From assembly GCF_007750395.1 (NCBI RefSeq), contig NZ_CP036281.1:2689001-2753000 (forward strand): DNA of 64,000 bases, in the 5' to 3' direction. Below the pieces are notes generated by a model. That model saw only the letters and a program-made list of their open reading frames with translations. It made no database searches and was not told the DNA's origin. This stretch comes from Polystyrenella longa (GTDB taxonomy: Bacteria > Planctomycetota > Planctomycetia > Planctomycetales > Planctomycetaceae). Shown one piece after another: positions 2 to 28,689 of this stretch (its first letter is position 1; each line of letters opens with the position of its first letter). Both the position numbers and the translations under genes were made by a program.

Positions 2-2239
2 CGGGACATTGTGATACACCCCTACGCCGGAATTCTAAGCGCTTATGGAATCGGTCTCTCCGATGTTCGCCAGTTTGCCGAACGTTCATTGCTGAGTCTT
101 TATGATAATGACTTCGAGTCGACTTTAGATTCTCTCTTCGCGGAGCTAGAGCATGAAGCAACTGCACAAGTTCTGGCGGAAGGTGTTCGCGAAGAACAAC
201 TGCAATCTCCAATAAGGTCATTAGAACTGCGTTATTGTGGTGTCGACTCGACGATTGTGGTTACGTGTTCCGAAGGCGACGGTGACTATAAAAAGCAATA
301 CGGACAACTTCATCAACAGCGATACGGTTATCAGCATCGAGAACGAGATGTTGAAGTCGTGACGGCCCGAGTAGAAGTGATAGGCCGGATGCCTCGACCC
401 GAATGGCCTGTTCAATTAGAGTCGACGGGCGAACTGACATCGTCAGAAAGAACTCCCGTTTTATTCGCTGGCAAATGGGAAACAACGTCGATCTATCATC
501 GCCGGGAATTGAAACCGGGAAATCAAATTGCCGGCCCTGCAATCGTTTGCGAACCAACAAGTACCGTCCTGATCGATCCCGGTTTTTCAGCCCGAATCGG
601 TCAGCAGGGTGAATTGCTGATTAAAGATGTCAGCCAGACGACGCAGTTTCAGTTATCCGCTAAAGAAGTCGACCCAGTTCAGTTGGAGATTTTCAATAAC
701 CTCTTCGCTTCGATTGCCGAGCAAATGGGGGTGACATTACAGAAAACTTCCTGTTCAACGAATGTCAAAGAACGACTCGATTTCAGTTGCGCTATCTTCA
801 CTCCGGCTGGTGATTTGGTCGTCAACGCGCCTCACATTCCCGTTCATCTGGGAGCGATGGGTGAAACGGTACGCCATATTTTGAAAGACAATCCTGAAAT
901 TGAACCGGGAGATGTCTTTGTCACGAACGATCCCTACCGGGGTGGTTCCCATCTTCCTGACGTCACCGTGGTGACGCCCGTGCATGACGAGCACTCAGAC
1001 GAGTTGTTATTTCTCACTGCCAGCCGCGCGCATCATGCGGAAATCGGCGGGATCGTGCCCGGTAGCATGCCACCCTTCTCTACTAACTTGGCCGAAGAAG
1101 GTGTCGTCATCCGGAACTTTAAACTAGTAGATCGGGGGGCGTCGCGTGAGGCTGAGCTACGGGCATTGTTACTTTCCGGTCCGCATCCGTCCCGGTCTGT
1201 GGAAGACAATCTTTCCGATGTTTCGGCCCAGGTCGCGGCGAATCAAAGTGGCGCAATTCAATTACTGGATCTGGTTGAACGTTATACTCAGCCGGTCGTG
1301 CAAGCTTACATGAGATTTATTCAGGAGGCCGCCGCCGCAAAAATGCGAATGGCTTTGAGAGAACTTCCTGATGGTATTTATGAACGAACAGATCATCAGG
1401 ATGATGGGTCTCCTGTCCGGGTGAAGATTACCAAACAGGGAGAATCGGCCCATGTTGATTTTACGGGAACGGGGCCGGTTCTTCAGACGAACCTTAATGC
1501 CAACCGGGCGATTGTGACTGCCGCTGTATTATATGTCTTCCGTTGCATGATTGACGAAGACATTCCGCTGAACAGTGGTGTCCTCGAACCGATTACGATT
1601 AATCTGCCCGAATGCCTGCTAAGCCCTCCCGAACAGGACCGTCCTGAAGACTGTGCCGCCATTGTGGGAGGGAATGTGGAAACGAGTCAGAAAGTCGTCG
1701 ATATCCTCCTGGGTGCGCTGGGGCTGGCGGCGGCCAGTCAGGGGACAATGAACAATCTCACTTTCGGCGATGACTCTTTCGGTTACTACGAGACGATTTG
1801 CGGAGGAAGTGGTGCGACATCCGATGCGGCCGGTACGGACGCGGTACATACGCATATGACCAATACACGCATGACCGATCCGGAAGTCTTCGAGAGACGC
1901 TATCCCGTAAGATTGTGGGAGTTCTCGGTCCGCACAGGTTCTGGCGGTGCCGGGCGTTTTCCGGGAGGCGATGGGATTACTCGACGAATAGAATTTCTAC
2001 GATCACTGAAAGTATCGATGCTCTCGGAACGACGGGGGGAATATCTTCCCTTCGGACTGGAAGGGGGCAGCCCGGGTGCGAAAGGAATTAATACCTTACT
2101 AAAAGCAAGTGAGCAAAAAACGGGTGAAGAAAATCAAACTGACCTTGGTGGAAAGTTTGCCATTGAGGTCGAACCAGGCGATCAACTGCTTATTGAAACG
2201 CCCGGCGGCGGCGGTTACTTCTTCGCAGAGGATGGATGA
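2..2239 (+). CDS. Hydantoinase/5-oxoprolinase family protein (fused HyuA C-terminus + HyuB), 5' end outside window
   Basis: Partial gene: the frame is open to the window edge, and the first residues (IVIHPYAGILSAYGIGLSDV) are mid-protein HyuA sequence, so the GTG at 11 is not a real start. About 742 residues are visible. Roughly residues 1-200 are the end of the hydantoinase A/oxoprolinase domain, and about 215-740 form a complete hydantoinase B domain (DPVQLEIFNNLF, TNDPYRGGSHLPDV, RAHHAEIGG, and GGSGA and PGGGGY near the end). The family hydrolyses 5-oxo-L-proline or hydantoin-type rings with ATP in the cytoplasm. The fused A-B layout is typical of 5-oxoprolinase (about 1,250-1,300 residues), so roughly 500 residues lie upstream. 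Substrate cannot be settled from sequence alone. It converges on the DUF1501 gene with a 28-bp gap. Confidence 0.88.
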   Translation, partial: RDIVIHPYAGILSAYGIGLSDVRQFAERSLLSLYDNDFESTLDSLFAELEHEATAQVLAEGVREEQLQSPIRSLELRYCGVDSTIVVTCSEGDGDYKKQYGQLHQQRYGYQHRERDVEVVTARVEVIGRMPRPEWPVQLESTGELTSSERTPVLFAGKWETTSIYHRRELKPGNQIAGPAIVCEPTSTVLIDPGFSARIGQQGELLIKDVSQTTQFQLSAKEVDPVQLEIFNNLFASIAEQMGVTLQKTSCSTNVKERLDFSCAIFTPAGDLVVNAPHIPVHLGAMGETVRHILKDNPEIEPGDVFVTNDPYRGGSHLPDVTVVTPVHDEHSDELLFLTASRAHHAEIGGIVPGSMPPFSTNLAEEGVVIRNFKLVDRGASREAELRALLLSGPHPSRSVEDNLSDVSAQVAANQSGAIQLLDLVERYTQPVVQAYMRFIQEAAAAKMRMALRELPDGIYERTDHQDDGSPVRVKITKQGESAHVDFTGTGPVLQTNLNANRAIVTAAVLYVFRCMIDEDIPLNSGVLEPITINLPECLLSPPEQDRPEDCAAIVGGNVETSQKVVDILLGALGLAAASQGTMNNLTFGDDSFGYYETICGGSGATSDAAGTDAVHTHMTNTRMTDPEVFERRYPVRLWEFSVRTGSGGAGRFPGGDGITRRIEFLRSLKVSMLSERRGEYLPFGLEGGSPGAKGINTLLKASEQKTGEENQTDLGGKFAIEVEPGDQLLIETPGGGGYFFAEDG

Positions 2240-2267
2240 GGACAAAAATCTTTATTTGATTGACCGA

Positions 2268-3683
2268 TCACGCCAGAATATCGTGAAGCACATTGCCATG
2301 AACATCGGTTAAACGAACGTCCCGTCCTCCATAGCGATACGTTAGTTTTTCATGGTCCAATCCAAGTTGATGCAGGACCGTCGCCCACAGGTCGTAAACA
2401 GTGCTTTTATCTTCGACGGCGTGGTAACCGAATTCATCGGTTGCTCCGTAGGTGGTTCCTCCTTTGAATCCCCCGCCCGCCATCCAGACACTGAAACCGA
2501 ATGGGTTATGGTCCCGACCATTCGACCCCTGCGAGAATGGAGTCCGGCCAAACTCGCCTGCCCAGATCACGATGGTGTCTTTTAATAGGCCACGGGCTTT
2601 CAAATCTTTGAGCAATCCTCCAATCGGTTGGTCGACCTGTTCCGACATCATTGAGTGTCCGGTCTTTAAATCACCATGCTGGTCCCATGGATTGGCAACT
2701 TGGCCATCGCCGTCATTCTGGGGTAGACAGGTTAATTCGACGAATCGAACCCCCTGCTCGACCAGTTTGCGGGCAAGTAGACATTGTCGACCGTAGTGAC
2801 GAGTCATTGGATTCTGAGCATTGAAGCCGTACATGTCGAGTGTCGACTTCGTCTCGCCTTCCAAGTTGCAGATTTCAGGCACGGCGGTCTGCATCCGGTA
2901 GGCAGTTTCATAATTTCTTACAGCGGCTTCAACTTGGGCATCGTTGCGGGTTGATTGCAGAAATTCCTGATCTAAATCCTGGATAAATGCAAGACGCTTT
3001 CGCTGCACATCGTCCCGTTCCTGAGCGTTGATGTTTCGAATGGGTTCCGCATTGTCGATAGTCATCTGCGACGCTTGATGCTGAGCGGGAAGATACCCAC
3101 TGCTCCAGAGTCCGACGCCCCCGTGCGGTGTACCGGATGGTCCGCTTTTCAGAACAACATATCCGGGAAGTTCCTGGTTCTCCGTCCCCAGCCCGTAGTT
3201 GATCCACGCACCGGCGCTGGCATGACCGATGAACGGGAAGCCGGTATGAAAGAAAAAGTTCCCTTGGGCGTGTTCGTTCACTGCACTGGTCATCGATCGA
3301 ACGACGGCGATGTCATCAATGCTTTCGGCAACATGCGGAAAAAGCGAGCTGACGGGTAATCCGCTCTCACCGTACTGTTTGAAATCAAAGGGAGAACCGA
3401 AGATGTTTCCATTGTTATTAAACTGAGTTCGTTCCACCTTCACCGGCATCGGCTTGCCGTGCATTTCCTTGAGGAGTGGTTTCGGATCGAACGTGTCGAT
3501 ATGCGAAGCTCCGCCCGACATGTAGCAAAGAATCACATTTTTTGCCTTCGCCGGAAAGTGCGGTTCTGGGGCGAGCGTGCCTGCGTAGGATTGGTCACTC
3601 ATTAGACTGGAGAGTGCCAACATCCCGAACCCGGAAGAGGCGGTCTGTAACAGTTGTCGGCGTGAAAAAATAGGATCAGTCAT
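2268..3683 (-). CDS. DUF1501 domain protein (sulfatase-like, Tat-exported)
   Basis: 471 residues. The twin-arginine motif [20 protein letters not shown] near the N-terminus predicts Tat export. The body matches planctomycete DUF1501 proteins, which have an alkaline-phosphatase/sulfatase-like fold: [62 protein letters not shown] chose the ATG at 3683 because GAGG lies just upstream and the Tat motif follows at once; a longer frame begins at 3725. It sits 54 bp downstream of the cytochrome/DUF1553 gene on the same strand. This pair recurs many times in planctomycete genomes and is thought to act together outside the cytoplasm; the biochemical role of DUF1501 is not established. Confidence 0.9.
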
Positions 3684-13165: not shown

Positions 13166-13849
13166 TTAAATATAGCGTGTGTTCGTTTTCAAATAACGCG
13201 TTGAGCTGAGCAGGTGGAACTTCATGGCGGCACCGGCGGTGTCGGCGAGTTTCTGTTCGAGGGCGGAGAGGATTTCCAGGTGCTCGTGGTATTCCCGTTT
13301 CAGAATGTCGGGGGCGTCACTGGAATAAGAATAGGTGAGCAGCTTGAAGCTCATGCATTTACGGATCGATTCCTGCAGAGGCAGGTTACCGCATGCTTCG
13401 GCGATGGTGATGTGGAGTTGGTAGTCGAACCGGTTGGCGGAGTCTTTCCAGTTTTCTGTCTTCGTCGGGTCGGCTGCGTCGGCCAGGTTTCGTAATTCGG
13501 CCAGTTGGGCTTCGGTCAGTCGGTGGGCCGCTTTTTCCGTTGCCGGGGGTTCGAGCAGAATGCGAAGCTCGTGAATGTCCATCAACCAACGTTCCGCGCC
13601 AGGAACGACGGTCGCCCGGTGGTTTTTTTCCTGAATGACGATACCATCGTGTAGCAACCGGCTGAGGGCCTGCAGAATGGGGGTCCGGCTGAGATCCAGT
13701 TCCCGCGCTAATCGCGTACTCTTCAATTCCGTACCAGCAGGAAGTTCACCGCTGATAATCTTGTGAAGAATCTGGTAGTAGGCGGTCTCGGTCAGCGTCG
13801 AATCCGAATTGAGCTCGACCGATTGCGACGTGCTGGCTGCTGGGTTCAT
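13166..13849 (-). CDS. GntR family transcriptional regulator (FCD/FadR-type)
   Basis: About 227 residues from the ATG at 13849; the frame extends to 13951 but the winged-helix domain begins after MNPAAS. N-terminal GntR helix-turn-helix (YYQILHKIISGELPAGTELK, STRLARELDLSRTPILQALS, RLLHDGIVI) followed by an all-helical FCD ligand domain (IHELRILLEPPATEKAA, FDYQLHITIAEACGN, EYHEHLEILSALE). Such proteins repress catabolic or metabolic genes until a small acid binds. It is divergent from the FAD oxidoreductase at 14029 across about 180 bp and might control it. Confidence 0.88.
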   Translation of the reverse strand: MNPAASTSQSVELNSDSTLTETAYYQILHKIISGELPAGTELKSTRLARELDLSRTPILQALSRLLHDGIVIQEKNHRATVVPGAERWLMDIHELRILLEPPATEKAAHRLTEAQLAELRNLADAADPTKTENWKDSANRFDYQLHITIAEACGNLPLQESIRKCMSFKLLTYSYSSDAPDILKREYHEHLEILSALEQKLADTAGAAMKFHLLSSTRYLKTNTRYI

Positions 13850-14028
13850 GAAGATCAGAGAATTCAGGAGTAGATTGATAGAAGTGTTCAATACGGGCAG
13901 ATTAAAACTGCCGTATCTTGTTATCATCCGCTTTGAGCGGGACAAACGCAACCGACAGTCTGTCGATTCAGTTGCAACACGAATAGGCCAATGGTGAGCG
14001 GGAACGGCTTCAAGGATAGAATCACTTC

Positions 14029-15120
14029 ATGTCAGCGTCGGAATTTGATTATCTGATCGTCGGCCAGGGAATCGCCGGGAGCTGCCTGGCGTGGGAGTTA
14101 TGGCGTCGCGGGAAATCGTTCCTGTTGGCCGATCCATGCCCATTTGTGACTACGTCCAAGGTGGCGGCGGGGCTGATGACGCCGGTGACAGGCCAACGGC
14201 TGGTTCCCAGTTGGCGATTTCTGGAGTTCCGCAATGTCGCTCTTCCGTTCTATCGGGAAATCGAGAAGGTAACAGGCCGGGGCTGCTGTCGCGAATTCAC
14301 GATGTTGCGGCTCTTTCAAAGTGAACGGGAACAAAACCTGTTTGCAAAAAAGCGAGAAGAGTTAAAATCGTATGTCAGTCCTTCCTCAAGCCGACTGGAA
14401 ATCGATTCCGATAAATTGAATGCCCCCTGGGGTGGTTTCGAGATGCCGCTGGCGGGCCAGTTGCAGACAGTTCCCTTTCTGGAAGCGACTCGGGACTTCT
14501 TCCTGAAACAGGAGAGGTACCGGGAGTTGAGTCTTGATATGGAGCAGGACTTCGACCTTTCTTCGGCGGATAAAGTCTATGTAGCGAAGCTGGACTCCAC
14601 ATTCGGCCGGATTGTTTGCTGTCAGGGAGTAAAGGGAATTGAAACAGAGGGGGTAAACAATTTACCATGGAAGCCAGCCAAGGGCGAAATCCTCACTTTA
14701 CACATTCCGGGTTTGCAGGAAGAGCGGGTCGTGAATTCAGGAGTCTGGTTAGTACCCCTGGGTGAAGATCGATATCGGGTAGGTTCGACATATGAATGGC
14801 AGAACCTAGATCAGGAGGTGACTGAGGCGGGACGGGACGAAATAGTTCGCCGGTTGCAGTCCTTCTTGAAGTTGCCATTTATGGTTATTGATCAACAGGC
14901 TGCCGTTCGTCCCGGCTTGGAAGATCAGAAGCCCGTAGCAGGCTCGTTTCCCGACGAACCTCGATTGGCGATTTTGAATGGGTTGGGGTCCAAGGGAGCT
15001 TTGATGGCTCCCTGGCTTGTCCAACAACTGGTGGATCATCTGGAGTTCGGAACAGGTATGGATCCTGAAGTGAACTTCGCGACAAGATTGAATAAGAGTT
15101 TGAAGAAAACGGATTGCTGA
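14029..15120 (+). CDS. FAD-dependent oxidoreductase, DAO fold, MnmC(o)-like
   Basis: 363 residues. An N-terminal dinucleotide-binding loop (YLIVGQGIAGSCLAWEL) is followed by KVAAGLMTPVTGQRLV, which aligns with the post-Rossmann segment of the MnmC oxidase domain. Near the C-terminus LNGLGSKGALMAPWLVQQL closely follows the GLGSRGL..APL signature of MnmC. MnmC(o) converts cmnm5U34 of tRNA to nm5U34. The stop overlaps the start of a YtqB/MnmM-type methyltransferase gene by one base (TGATG), so the two are translationally coupled. A glycine-oxidase-like role in amine metabolism is the alternative. AAGGA lies about 12 bases before the ATG. Confidence 0.8.
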   Translation: MSASEFDYLIVGQGIAGSCLAWELWRRGKSFLLADPCPFVTTSKVAAGLMTPVTGQRLVPSWRFLEFRNVALPFYREIEKVTGRGCCREFTMLRLFQSEREQNLFAKKREELKSYVSPSSSRLEIDSDKLNAPWGGFEMPLAGQLQTVPFLEATRDFFLKQERYRELSLDMEQDFDLSSADKVYVAKLDSTFGRIVCCQGVKGIETEGVNNLPWKPAKGEILTLHIPGLQEERVVNSGVWLVPLGEDRYRVGSTYEWQNLDQEVTEAGRDEIVRRLQSFLKLPFMVIDQQAAVRPGLEDQKPVAGSFPDEPRLAILNGLGSKGALMAPWLVQQLVDHLEFGTGMDPEVNFATRLNKSLKKTDC

Positions 15121-15683
15121 TGCGGTTAACAGAACAAGCTCATGAAATCATTCGAAAATCGATGCTGCCTGGCGATGTCGTGATTGATGCGACCGCCGGA
15201 AATGGAGTCGATACGCAATTTCTGGCGGAACAGGTTGGTCCTGAAGGGCGCGTCTTTGCTTTTGACATCCAGCAAACGGCGATCGACCAGACCGCCCTGC
15301 GGTTGATGAATGCCGACCTGGCTCAGGTGACTTTGGTCTGTGCCTCGCACGCAGAGATGTTTGAATATGTCCCCCCAGAATTTCACGGCATGGTGAATGT
15401 GATCATGTTCAATCTGGGATATTTGCCGGGGGGGGATAAGTCCTGCATCACTAAAACAGAGACGACTTTGCTCGCCCTGGAGCAATCGCGGCAACTATTG
15501 GCACCCGGTGGGCTCATCACGGTGCTGCTCTATCCCGGACACGAAGGGGGCGACAAAGAAGCCGCCGCTGTTGAAGAATGGTGCGGTGAGTTGGGCGAGG
15601 AAGAATTCGAAGTCGAAAGTTTCACTGTCGAAAATCCGGAAGCCCCGCGGTTGTGGGTTCTCGTTCATCGTGGCGATTCCTGA
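15120..15683 (+). CDS. mnmM: YtqB/MnmM-type class I SAM methyltransferase
   Basis: 187 residues from the ATG at 15120, which shares its A with the TGA of the preceding gene. It carries the family's DATAGNGVDTQFLAE SAM-binding loop, FDIQQTAID, FNLGYLPGGDK and LYPGHEGG, all in order, and matches the family length. YtqB was shown to be MnmM, which methylates nm5(s2)U34 of tRNA to mnm5(s2)U34 in Gram-positive bacteria that lack MnmC. Coupled to an MnmC(o)-like oxidase, it could complete the pathway from cmnm5U to mnm5U. The gene symbol rests on family resemblance. Confidence 0.85.
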   Translation: MRLTEQAHEIIRKSMLPGDVVIDATAGNGVDTQFLAEQVGPEGRVFAFDIQQTAIDQTALRLMNADLAQVTLVCASHAEMFEYVPPEFHGMVNVIMFNLGYLPGGDKSCITKTETTLLALEQSRQLLAPGGLITVLLYPGHEGGDKEAAAVEEWCGELGEEEFEVESFTVENPEAPRLWVLVHRGDS

Positions 15684-15725: not shown

Positions 15726-16397
15726 TCAGCGGTTCAAAGTAACCATTGCCAGTAGATCGTCGTCGACATTCTGCAGGGTCCATTCGCCCCACTGGCGGAG
15801 GTCTTCGTCACAGTAAATTGCCGACCAGCTTCCGGTTTCATCCTGCTGAACGGTTATCTGCTGTGGATTGAATCCCTCAATATTCTGGTTCGCCGCTTTA
15901 TAGGTCGCTTCTTTGAAGGCCCAGATTTCGCTGGCGGCTTTTTGTGGGTTTGTCTGACTTTGAACGAGCTGTTTTTCGGAGTCGTTCATAGCCCAGTCAA
16001 ATTGCCTGGGAGTAATGTTGCCAGGAGTAATCAGGTCGATGCCTACGGTCTCACCGGTGTTTTCAGTCCAGGCGGCGGCGATATGATGATCGCTGTGGGA
16101 AAGGCTGAAGCATCCGGGGAGAATATTTCCGTCCTGAGAAATTTGTGGACGTATCCCCTGCCCTGAAGCATTTCGGGTCTGAATCGAAATGGCTGCTGGG
16201 TCGATATTTCGCTCTTTCAGGAGGAGCAGACGAAGGAGCTTCCGTCCCGCTAACCAGGTTGTGCGGCGATGTTCGGCCCGCAAGGGGGCAAGTTCAGCGG
16301 ATTCCGCTGGAGAAAGGAGTTCCTCCAGGTCGGTCAGGCCGTGCTGTTGCCACTCGCTTTCGAGCTGATTAAACGTCATAATCCTTAAATAGGGCAC
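15726..16397 (-). CDS. 4'-phosphopantetheinyl transferase (Sfp type)
   Basis: 223 residues. The Sfp/AcpT signature residues are present: RRTTWLAGRKLLRLLL near the N-terminus, SLSHSDHHIAAAW, VGIDLI (Mg2+-binding Asp) and WAFKEATYKA (catalytic Glu and Lys). The enzyme transfers phosphopantetheine from CoA to acyl- or peptidyl-carrier proteins. A GTG start at 16397 is favoured by GAAGG six bases upstream; an ATG at 16379 is the alternative. It converges on the methyltransferase gene with a 42-bp gap. No polyketide or peptide synthase is nearby, so the target carrier protein is unknown. Confidence 0.9.
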   Translation of the reverse strand: MPYLRIMTFNQLESEWQQHGLTDLEELLSPAESAELAPLRAEHRRTTWLAGRKLLRLLLLKERNIDPAAISIQTRNASGQGIRPQISQDGNILPGCFSLSHSDHHIAAAWTENTGETVGIDLITPGNITPRQFDWAMNDSEKQLVQSQTNPQKAASEIWAFKEATYKAANQNIEGFNPQQITVQQDETGSWSAIYCDEDLRQWGEWTLQNVDDDLLAMVTLNR

Positions 16398-27555: not shown

Positions 27556-28689
27556 ATGCCACGTCCGATATTCGACTGTGCTGTAATCGGACTAGGTGGC
27601 GTCGGAAGTGCCGCCGCTTATCATCTTGCGCGGCGTGGAGTGAATGTACTCGGGTTGGAACAGTTTACTCCAGCTCATGATTTGGGTAGTTCTCATGGTG
27701 AAACTCGCATTATCCGGCAGGCCTATTTTGAACATCCCAATTACGTCCCGTTGATTCTCAGGGCGTATGAGTTGTTCAAGGAGCTGGAGGAGACGTCAGG
27801 AAAACAATTGCTGCAGCAATGTGGATTGCTTCTTGCCGGTCCACCGGAAGGAGAAACGATACAAGGGGCACGATTGGCTCAGCATTTACATCAAATTCCA
27901 TTGGAGTCTGTGCGTGCGGCCGATTGGGAAGATCGCTTTCCCGGGTTTCGCATCCCCAATGGATTCGATGTTGTCTTCGAACCGGTCGCGGGTTTTCTTC
28001 ATGTCGAAGAGACAGTGCGGACACATCTTGATGAAGCACAAAAAGCGGGAGCTGATCTCCGTTTCAATATTGAAGTTATAAACTGGCGTAAAGAAGGTGA
28101 TCAGTTCGTCATTACCACCGAATTCGAAGAATTCATCGCACACAAGCTCATCGTCACTGCGGGGGCCTGGACGAGTGAATTGTTGAATTCACTCAACGTT
28201 CCATTGCAGGTGCGTCGTGTCGTGCTCTGTTGGAACAAGGTTCAATCGGATTGCTACAATCTGTCTCAGGGAGGGAGCTGTTTCTTCATGGAAACAGCTC
28301 TGGGTGAGTTTTATGGTTTTCCGTCGCTCGATGGCCAAAAGCTGAAACTGGCAGAGCATGGCGGAGGACTCGACATCGCAAATCCTGACGAGTTAATTCG
28401 TACGAAGTTGGCTGGCGATGGTGATCGAGTGGCTCAATTCATTGAGAGCTTCATGCCGCAGCTCAAGCCTCAGTCGGAGCGGCAAGCCGTTTGTATGTAT
28501 ACATTATCGCCCGATCATCATTTTCTGGTCGACGAACACCCCGATATTACTGGAATCTATCTAGGTGCCGGCTTTTCAGGTCACGGGTTCAAGTTTACTT
28601 CCGTCTTAGGGGAAATTCTCGCTGATCTGGGAAGTGAAGGACGGACGGAGCATCCGATCGACTTTCTGCGGTTGTCCCGCTTCGAGTGA
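27556..28689 (+). CDS. Sarcosine/N-methyl-L-tryptophan oxidase-like FAD enzyme
   Basis: 377 residues from the ATG at 27556, preceded by GGAGAAGG. Monomeric sarcosine oxidase/MTOX family: CAVIGLGGVGSAAAYHLARR for FAD, a LGSSHGETRIIRQAYFEHP segment typical of the family, KLIVTAGAWTSELL, and CMYTLSPDHHFLVDEHP, which holds the cysteine that carries covalent FAD in MSOX. It oxidatively demethylates N-methyl amino acids to yield formaldehyde and H2O2. The exact substrate is not known. Monocistronic. Confidence 0.9.
   Translation: MPRPIFDCAVIGLGGVGSAAAYHLARRGVNVLGLEQFTPAHDLGSSHGETRIIRQAYFEHPNYVPLILRAYELFKELEETSGKQLLQQCGLLLAGPPEGETIQGARLAQHLHQIPLESVRAADWEDRFPGFRIPNGFDVVFEPVAGFLHVEETVRTHLDEAQKAGADLRFNIEVINWRKEGDQFVITTEFEEFIAHKLIVTAGAWTSELLNSLNVPLQVRRVVLCWNKVQSDCYNLSQGGSCFFMETALGEFYGFPSLDGQKLKLAEHGGGLDIANPDELIRTKLAGDGDRVAQFIESFMPQLKPQSERQAVCMYTLSPDHHFLVDEHPDITGIYLGAGFSGHGFKFTSVLGEILADLGSEGRTEHPIDFLRLSRFE

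Follow-up and report, generated by a model that had tools for sequence, protein, structure and literature searches.

Two overlapping genes, one for a flavin-dependent oxidase and one for the tRNA methyltransferase MnmM, very probably form a unit that finishes the modification of U34, in which the oxidase would convert cmnm5(s2)U34 to nm5(s2)U34 and MnmM would then methylate the product. The pair lies in a stretch of 64,000 nucleotides (C1:2689001-2753000 of genome G000, which is one contig of 6.1 Mb and 99.95% complete), referred to here as the window. A first-pass annotation of the window had proposed that the two genes make up a mixed two-gene route to mnm5U34. That proposal is well supported by the recurrence of the pair in other genomes, where it is often fused, by the assignment of the second protein to the curated MnmM family, and by the finding of no complete mnmC in this genome.

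The coordinates of the pair are given in Table 1. The one-base overlap and all of the motifs described in the first-pass annotation are present in the two genes and their products. The open reading frame list also offers an upstream TTG at position 15114 as an alternative start for MnmM, which would lengthen the protein to 189 amino acids. From the overlap, we infer that translation of the two genes may be coupled. No clear promoter was found (three sigma-70-like sites, compared to a mean of 1.9 in shuffled sequence). A divergent gene for a GntR/FCD-type regulator (13166-13951, reverse strand) lies directly upstream and might conceivably control the pair, and a 4'-phosphopantetheinyl transferase is encoded downstream of MnmM on the opposite strand (15726-16397). 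The window encodes a second DAO protein (27574-28629), which scores as an N-methyl-L-tryptophan oxidase (398.7 bits).

Table 1. Features of the oxidase–MnmM locus, in window coordinates.
Feature	Position	Strand	Basis
FAD-dependent oxidase, DAO/glycine-oxidase fold, 363 aa	14029..15120	+	Pfam DAO, 85.7 bits; AlphaFold2 fold
MnmM (YtqB) tRNA nm5(s2)U34 methyltransferase, predicted, 187 aa from ATG	15120..15683	+	NF053511, PF06962
TGATG, oxidase stop and MnmM start, base 15120 common to both	15118..15122	+	Sequence

The second protein scored 199.5 bits against NF053511, the curated model for MnmM (cutoff, 135), which bears out its earlier description as a YtqB/MnmM-type enzyme, and it matched PF06962 in Pfam at 145 bits. 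Against the YtqB chain 8h0s, phmmer gave an E value of 8.6e-40 and an alignment that was gapless across residues 7 to 172. Residues Asn98 and Tyr138 of the window protein align to chain positions 101 and 141 of 8h0s, which correspond to the catalytic Asn/Tyr pair of MnmM (Asn-98/101 and Tyr-138/141) discussed in PMC9976899, and each of the two is conserved in 51 of the 52 copies that have a letter there (53 rows, including the window). Since MnmM is characterized in the same paper as an nm5s2U methylase, the window enzyme is predicted to methylate nm5(s2)U34 in tRNA.

The oxidase is harder to name. Pfam matched only DAO in it, and it fell below the cutoffs of two curated models, scoring 63.7 bits against the MnmC(o) model TIGR03197 (cutoff, 174.2) and 93.1 bits against the ThiO model TIGR02352 (cutoff, 250.8). 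None of 11 family oxidases reached either cutoff; with TIGR03197, 10 of them scored 42.4 to 85.3 bits, four close relatives of the window oxidase scored 63.6 to 85.3 bits, and L132 had no match listed. The MnmC(o) model outscored the ThiO model for two proteins (L022 and L023), and the reverse was true of L024, L025, and the window protein. In a phylogenetic tree, the oxidases formed one clade with support of 100/99 and a long stem, drawn from Planctomycetota, Bacteroidota, Verrucomicrobiota, Hyphomicrobiales, and one acidobacterium. A search of plasmids for relatives of the oxidase returned no match at 1e-8. Judged by the curated models and the tree, the oxidase is classed as neither MnmC(o) nor ThiO and forms part of a distinct clade. 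The earlier label “MnmC(o)-type” is apt in the sense that the enzyme would work like MnmC(o), and it fails as a statement of family membership, because the score is below the cutoff, the protein lacks a stretch of about 25 residues that is inserted in the aligned MnmC(o) domains, and the clade is separate. We rejected ThiO as the identity of the window oxidase, since its cutoff is missed widely and the genome encodes a separate ThiO (C1:1858328-1859356; 305.3 bits, above the 250.8 cutoff). The oxidase also does not resemble the radical-SAM protein MnmL: DAO is its only Pfam match, and the genome has no match to TIGR01212.

The GLGSKG motif of the window oxidase matches GSRG column for column in all four MnmC(o) domains of the alignment. 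The GS[KR]G form occurs in none of 25 other DAO rows, or none of 23 usable ones once two rows that are probably in wrong reading frames (L082 and L100) are set aside; 17 of the 25 have a GH-type motif instead, such as GHFRDG. Among the oxidases themselves, 49 of 61 aligned rows have GS[KRH]G, and nine of the remaining 12, all nine from Bacteroidota, have GTKG. The insert of about 25 residues precedes the GSRG motif in all four aligned MnmC(o) domains, but neither the window protein nor the four relatives compared with it has this insert. Arg294 is conserved in all 79 oxidase copies that have a letter at that position (81 rows, including the window). In a glycine oxidase it aligns to an arginine (chain position 315) that we take to be Arg302, the ligand of the substrate carboxylate, after subtraction of the tag.

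An AlphaFold2 model of the oxidase, built from a 61-sequence alignment, had a mean pLDDT of 95.4. Foldseek placed CmiS2 and glycine oxidases at the top of its list, with iminodiacetate oxidase at rank 7 and the best MnmC at rank 23. Alignment with VIA-align gave a Z score of 35.9 over 343 residues (2.7 Å) for glycine oxidase (3if9) and 32.8 over 346 residues (3.2 Å) for MnmC (3ps9). The enzymes with the closest folds (glycine oxidase, CmiS2, MnmC, and the iminodiacetate oxidase IdaA) act on glycine or N-substituted glycines. CmiS2 strips an N-carboxymethyl group as glyoxylic acid (PMC11284099), and by analogy this is the same chemistry as the conversion of cmnm5U to nm5U. The fold leaves the substrate unfixed, because glycine and sarcosine oxidases have it too. 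MnmC1 itself is called a homolog of glycine oxidase in PMC3648344, where MnmC is said to have no significant activity on glycine or sarcosine.

These features suggest a scheme for the pathway. First, cmnm5(s2)U34 would be produced by MnmE and MnmG, whose genes lie at other sites of the genome. Its carboxymethylamino group, which resembles glycine, would then be bound by the oxidase, with the invariant Arg294 holding the carboxylate, and hydride would pass from this arm to FAD. Hydrolysis of the resulting imine would yield nm5(s2)U34 and glyoxylate, after which MnmM, using SAM, would methylate the amine to give mnm5(s2)U34.

Scanning GTDB genomes with two short patterns yielded 446 relatives of the oxidase. 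The analysis used the best 80, which are therefore the nearest relatives and not a random sample. Within these best 80 of 446, the oxidase and MnmM occupied a single open frame in 19; MnmM lay no more than 100 nt away in 31, on the same strand as the oxidase, and within 1.8 kb in 2. The other 28 had no MnmM nearby, although for three of them the downstream sequence covered was less than 1.2 kb. MnmM was found in none of the 31 DAO loci that served as controls (30 different loci, L001 and L089 being the same gene), which were examined with 1.5-kb flanks, one of them shorter. The pairing exceeds chance: 50 of the best 80 relatives were fused or within 100 nt of MnmM, compared to 0 of 31 controls. 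When start codons were chosen by script, the two genes overlapped in 22 of the 31 adjacent cases, and the overlaps were 1 to 22 nt long.

The nearest relative among the best 80 of 446 (L116, with a 58% identical oxidase) is a fusion. It has CTGATGCGGTT in frame inside the fused open reading frame, at the site of the stop-start overlap of the window. A model of this fusion protein from an alignment of the 19 fused sequences had a mean pLDDT of 87.3 and a pTM of 0.67. Pfam found both domains in all four fusions tested, and the NCBIfam MnmM model scored above its cutoff in five of six. In a quick tree of 85 oxidases, six changes were required to explain the fused and adjacent states, and the starred branches alone force five changes between fused and all other states. 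Conservation of the neighborhood, a check proposed along with the first-pass annotation, was thus found in relatives, often in the form of one fused protein. Two fusions, L141 and L157, carry a damaged motif in the MnmM half (FNPGLLPG and FHFGPLPG, respectively); L157 scores below the MnmM cutoff and L141 just above it (138 versus 135). We speculate that these two are perhaps on the way to loss of methylation.

The genome encodes MnmG (840.5 bits) and MnmE (270.3 bits; cutoff, 252.6). A complete mnmC elsewhere in the genome, which the first-pass annotation had held would speak against the mixed route, was searched for and not found: the genome contains no PF05430 match and no TIGR03197 match above the cutoff. 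It also has no match to TIGR01212, the MnmL-type model, which is an imperfect stand-in for MnmL because it is not specific and matches E. coli as well. In a genome from a different family of the phylum, a 661-amino-acid open reading frame (L220, G036:C33:23200-26200, positions 413-2398, reverse strand) joins a radical-SAM protein (TIGR01212 and Radical_SAM_C) to a PF05430 MnmC(m) domain and appears to be another mixed U34-finishing fusion.

In a sample of 149 genomes from the phylum, a single-sequence search (E values up to 1e-10) detected the oxidase in five, and a repeat with a 61-row profile (E values up to 1e-35) again gave five. MnmM scored above the cutoff in nine of the 149, and all five oxidase genomes were among those nine. 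The two genes are adjacent in four of the five (G000, G048, G069, and G137) and about 131 kb apart in G024; all five come from a single family and therefore do not count as independent cases. The two other genomes of that family (G087 and G105) had neither the oxidase nor MnmM above the threshold. The five oxidase genomes had no match to PF05430 (E values up to 1e-6) or TIGR01212 (E values up to 1e-10). TIGR03197 scored above its cutoff in 3 of the 149 genomes (G035, G079, and G040), none of which has the oxidase. MnmM does not require the oxidase, since G107 (L027) and G071 (L030) have MnmM above the cutoff without the oxidase or TIGR01212 at the thresholds used.

For the 28 relatives without a nearby MnmM, the genomes were searched for MnmM (E values up to 1e-15), PF05430 (E values up to 1e-6), and TIGR01212. 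Four had MnmM above the cutoff elsewhere, one had pieces of it below the cutoff, and one had TIGR01212 above the cutoff. Twelve encoded a stand-alone PF05430 methylase in an open frame of 218 to 265 amino acids, and these same 12 account for 12 of the 13 Bacteroidota oxidase loci. Because PMC9976899 lists Bacteroides as a group in which mnmC(m) is an orphan, this co-occurrence is by itself weak evidence. No orphan MnmC(m) was detected beside the Bacteroidota oxidases in flanks of up to about 4 kb with a home-made model of planctomycete copies, a model that may not reach Bacteroidota. We also considered and rejected a methylase as the conserved neighbor in several Gemmatales-like loci; the neighbor is a Gfo/Idh/MocA protein (by Pfam in two, with look-alikes elsewhere).

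The remaining 11 of the 28 genomes (L133, L137, L146 to L149, L155, L158, L159, L163, and L185), which are mostly MAGs of unstated completeness, had neither MnmM nor PF05430 in these searches. The oxidase can therefore occur without a known methylase; in such genomes, modification might stop at nm5(s2)U, or a different methylase might act.

How the oxidase arose bears on its label. It might be a true, fast-evolving MnmC(o), that is, the oxidase half of MnmC with MnmM as its new partner, a reading that would change the origin and the name of the protein and leave its function as proposed. The GS[KR]G motif is shared with all four MnmC(o) domains and with none of the usable other DAO rows, TIGR03197 is the better-scoring model for two family members, and the quick tree placed MnmC(o) next to the oxidase family with an SH-aLRT value of 85. 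That tree included the two wrong-frame DAO rows and other long branches, and for this reason a smaller, careful tree without L082 and L100 was built, in which the oxidase family and MnmC(o) were not grouped and long-branch warnings were raised. An approximately unbiased (AU) test did not reject a grouping of the oxidase with MnmC(o) (p 0.381), and it did not reject a grouping with ThiO either (p 0.198); the first-pass annotation had held that clustering with glycine oxidase would speak against its proposal. Against descent from MnmC(o) also stand the TIGR03197 cutoff missed by all 11 family proteins, the missing insert, and the long stem branch. We regard this origin as possible and rather unlikely.

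A different function is less probable again. The higher score of the window protein against the ThiO model than against MnmC(o), and the glycine oxidases and CmiS2 that head the fold lists, would suit a ThiO-like oxidase of small molecules such as glycine or sarcosine that is a mere genomic neighbor of MnmM. We consider this highly improbable: the genome has its own ThiO above the cutoff, the best 80 of 446 relatives include 19 fusions and 31 adjacent pairs from several phyla, and no other DAO locus of the 31 lies near MnmM. It is at least as hard to believe that the pair acts on U34 by another reaction, for example, with MnmM working before the oxidase or with another U34 side chain as the oxidase substrate. 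Such a reaction would fit the 11 oxidase genomes with no known nm5U methylase found and the indirect assignment of the oxidase substrate; however, MnmM is an nm5s2U methylase (PMC9976899), and an N-carboxymethyl amine oxidase would supply exactly the missing prior step. Oxidation of cmnm5(s2)U34 followed by methylation by MnmM is the reading that we retain.

According to the Discussion of PMC9976899, which identified MnmM, the MnmC(o)-like enzyme was unknown for organisms that have MnmM, and groups whose MnmC(m) is an orphan, among them Bacteroides and alpha-Proteobacteria, likely encode such an enzyme too. The oxidase family, which occurs in Planctomycetota, Hyphomicrobiales, and Bacteroidota and in some lineages forms one protein with MnmM, is a concrete candidate for the missing enzyme. 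On balance, we lean slightly toward the view that it is a third, independently recruited family for the conversion of cmnm5U to nm5U, present in at least five phyla, that forms a mirror-image MnmC where it is fused to MnmM and that in Bacteroidota serves as the missing oxidase partner of orphan MnmC(m) methylases. If this is true, U34 finishing would work as a plug-in system that draws on three oxidizing modules and two methylases in varying combinations.

MnmL, the enzyme credited with the step in Gram-positive bacteria, is a radical-SAM enzyme. The abstract of an article on alternate routes to mnm5s2U, by Jaroch et al. (J Bacteriol, 2024), reportedly mentions fusion proteins and calls MnmL a radical-SAM enzyme, so part of the oxidase–MnmM finding may already be known. 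The pair is described in no title or abstract opening among the literature matches listed. A table in PMC12548931 credits the nm5s2U step to MnmL, citing Jaroch et al. 2024. According to a passage in PMC7408541, the MnmC-like activity of B. subtilis needs no S-adenosyl-methionine, which is odd if MnmL is a radical-SAM enzyme.

Compared to the MnmM/YtqB enzymes of Bacillus subtilis and Staphylococcus aureus (PMC9976899), the window methyltransferase belongs to the same curated family and has the same catalytic Asn and Tyr. The difference lies in the prior step, which in Gram-positive bacteria is credited to MnmL (PMC12548931), whereas here MnmM adjoins a flavin oxidase. ThiO, CmiS2, and IdaA are among the closest folds and oxidize glycine or N-substituted glycines by flavin, but they act on small molecules, and the window oxidase scores far below the ThiO cutoff in a genome with a separate ThiO. 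In E. coli and Yersinia, MnmC joins the MnmC2 methylase to the MnmC1/MnmC(o) oxidase, and we propose the same two consecutive steps for the two domains here. The oxidases have the same fold, a similar GS[KR]G motif, and the same aligned arginine, although the oxidase of the window lies outside the curated family and does not have the MnmC(o) insert. The methylase here is MnmM and not PF05430, the window has two overlapping genes in place of a single protein, and the fusions that we found run oxidase-methylase, whereas MnmC runs methylase-oxidase. The best reading of the pair is that it would be a mirror image of E. coli MnmC built from other modules.
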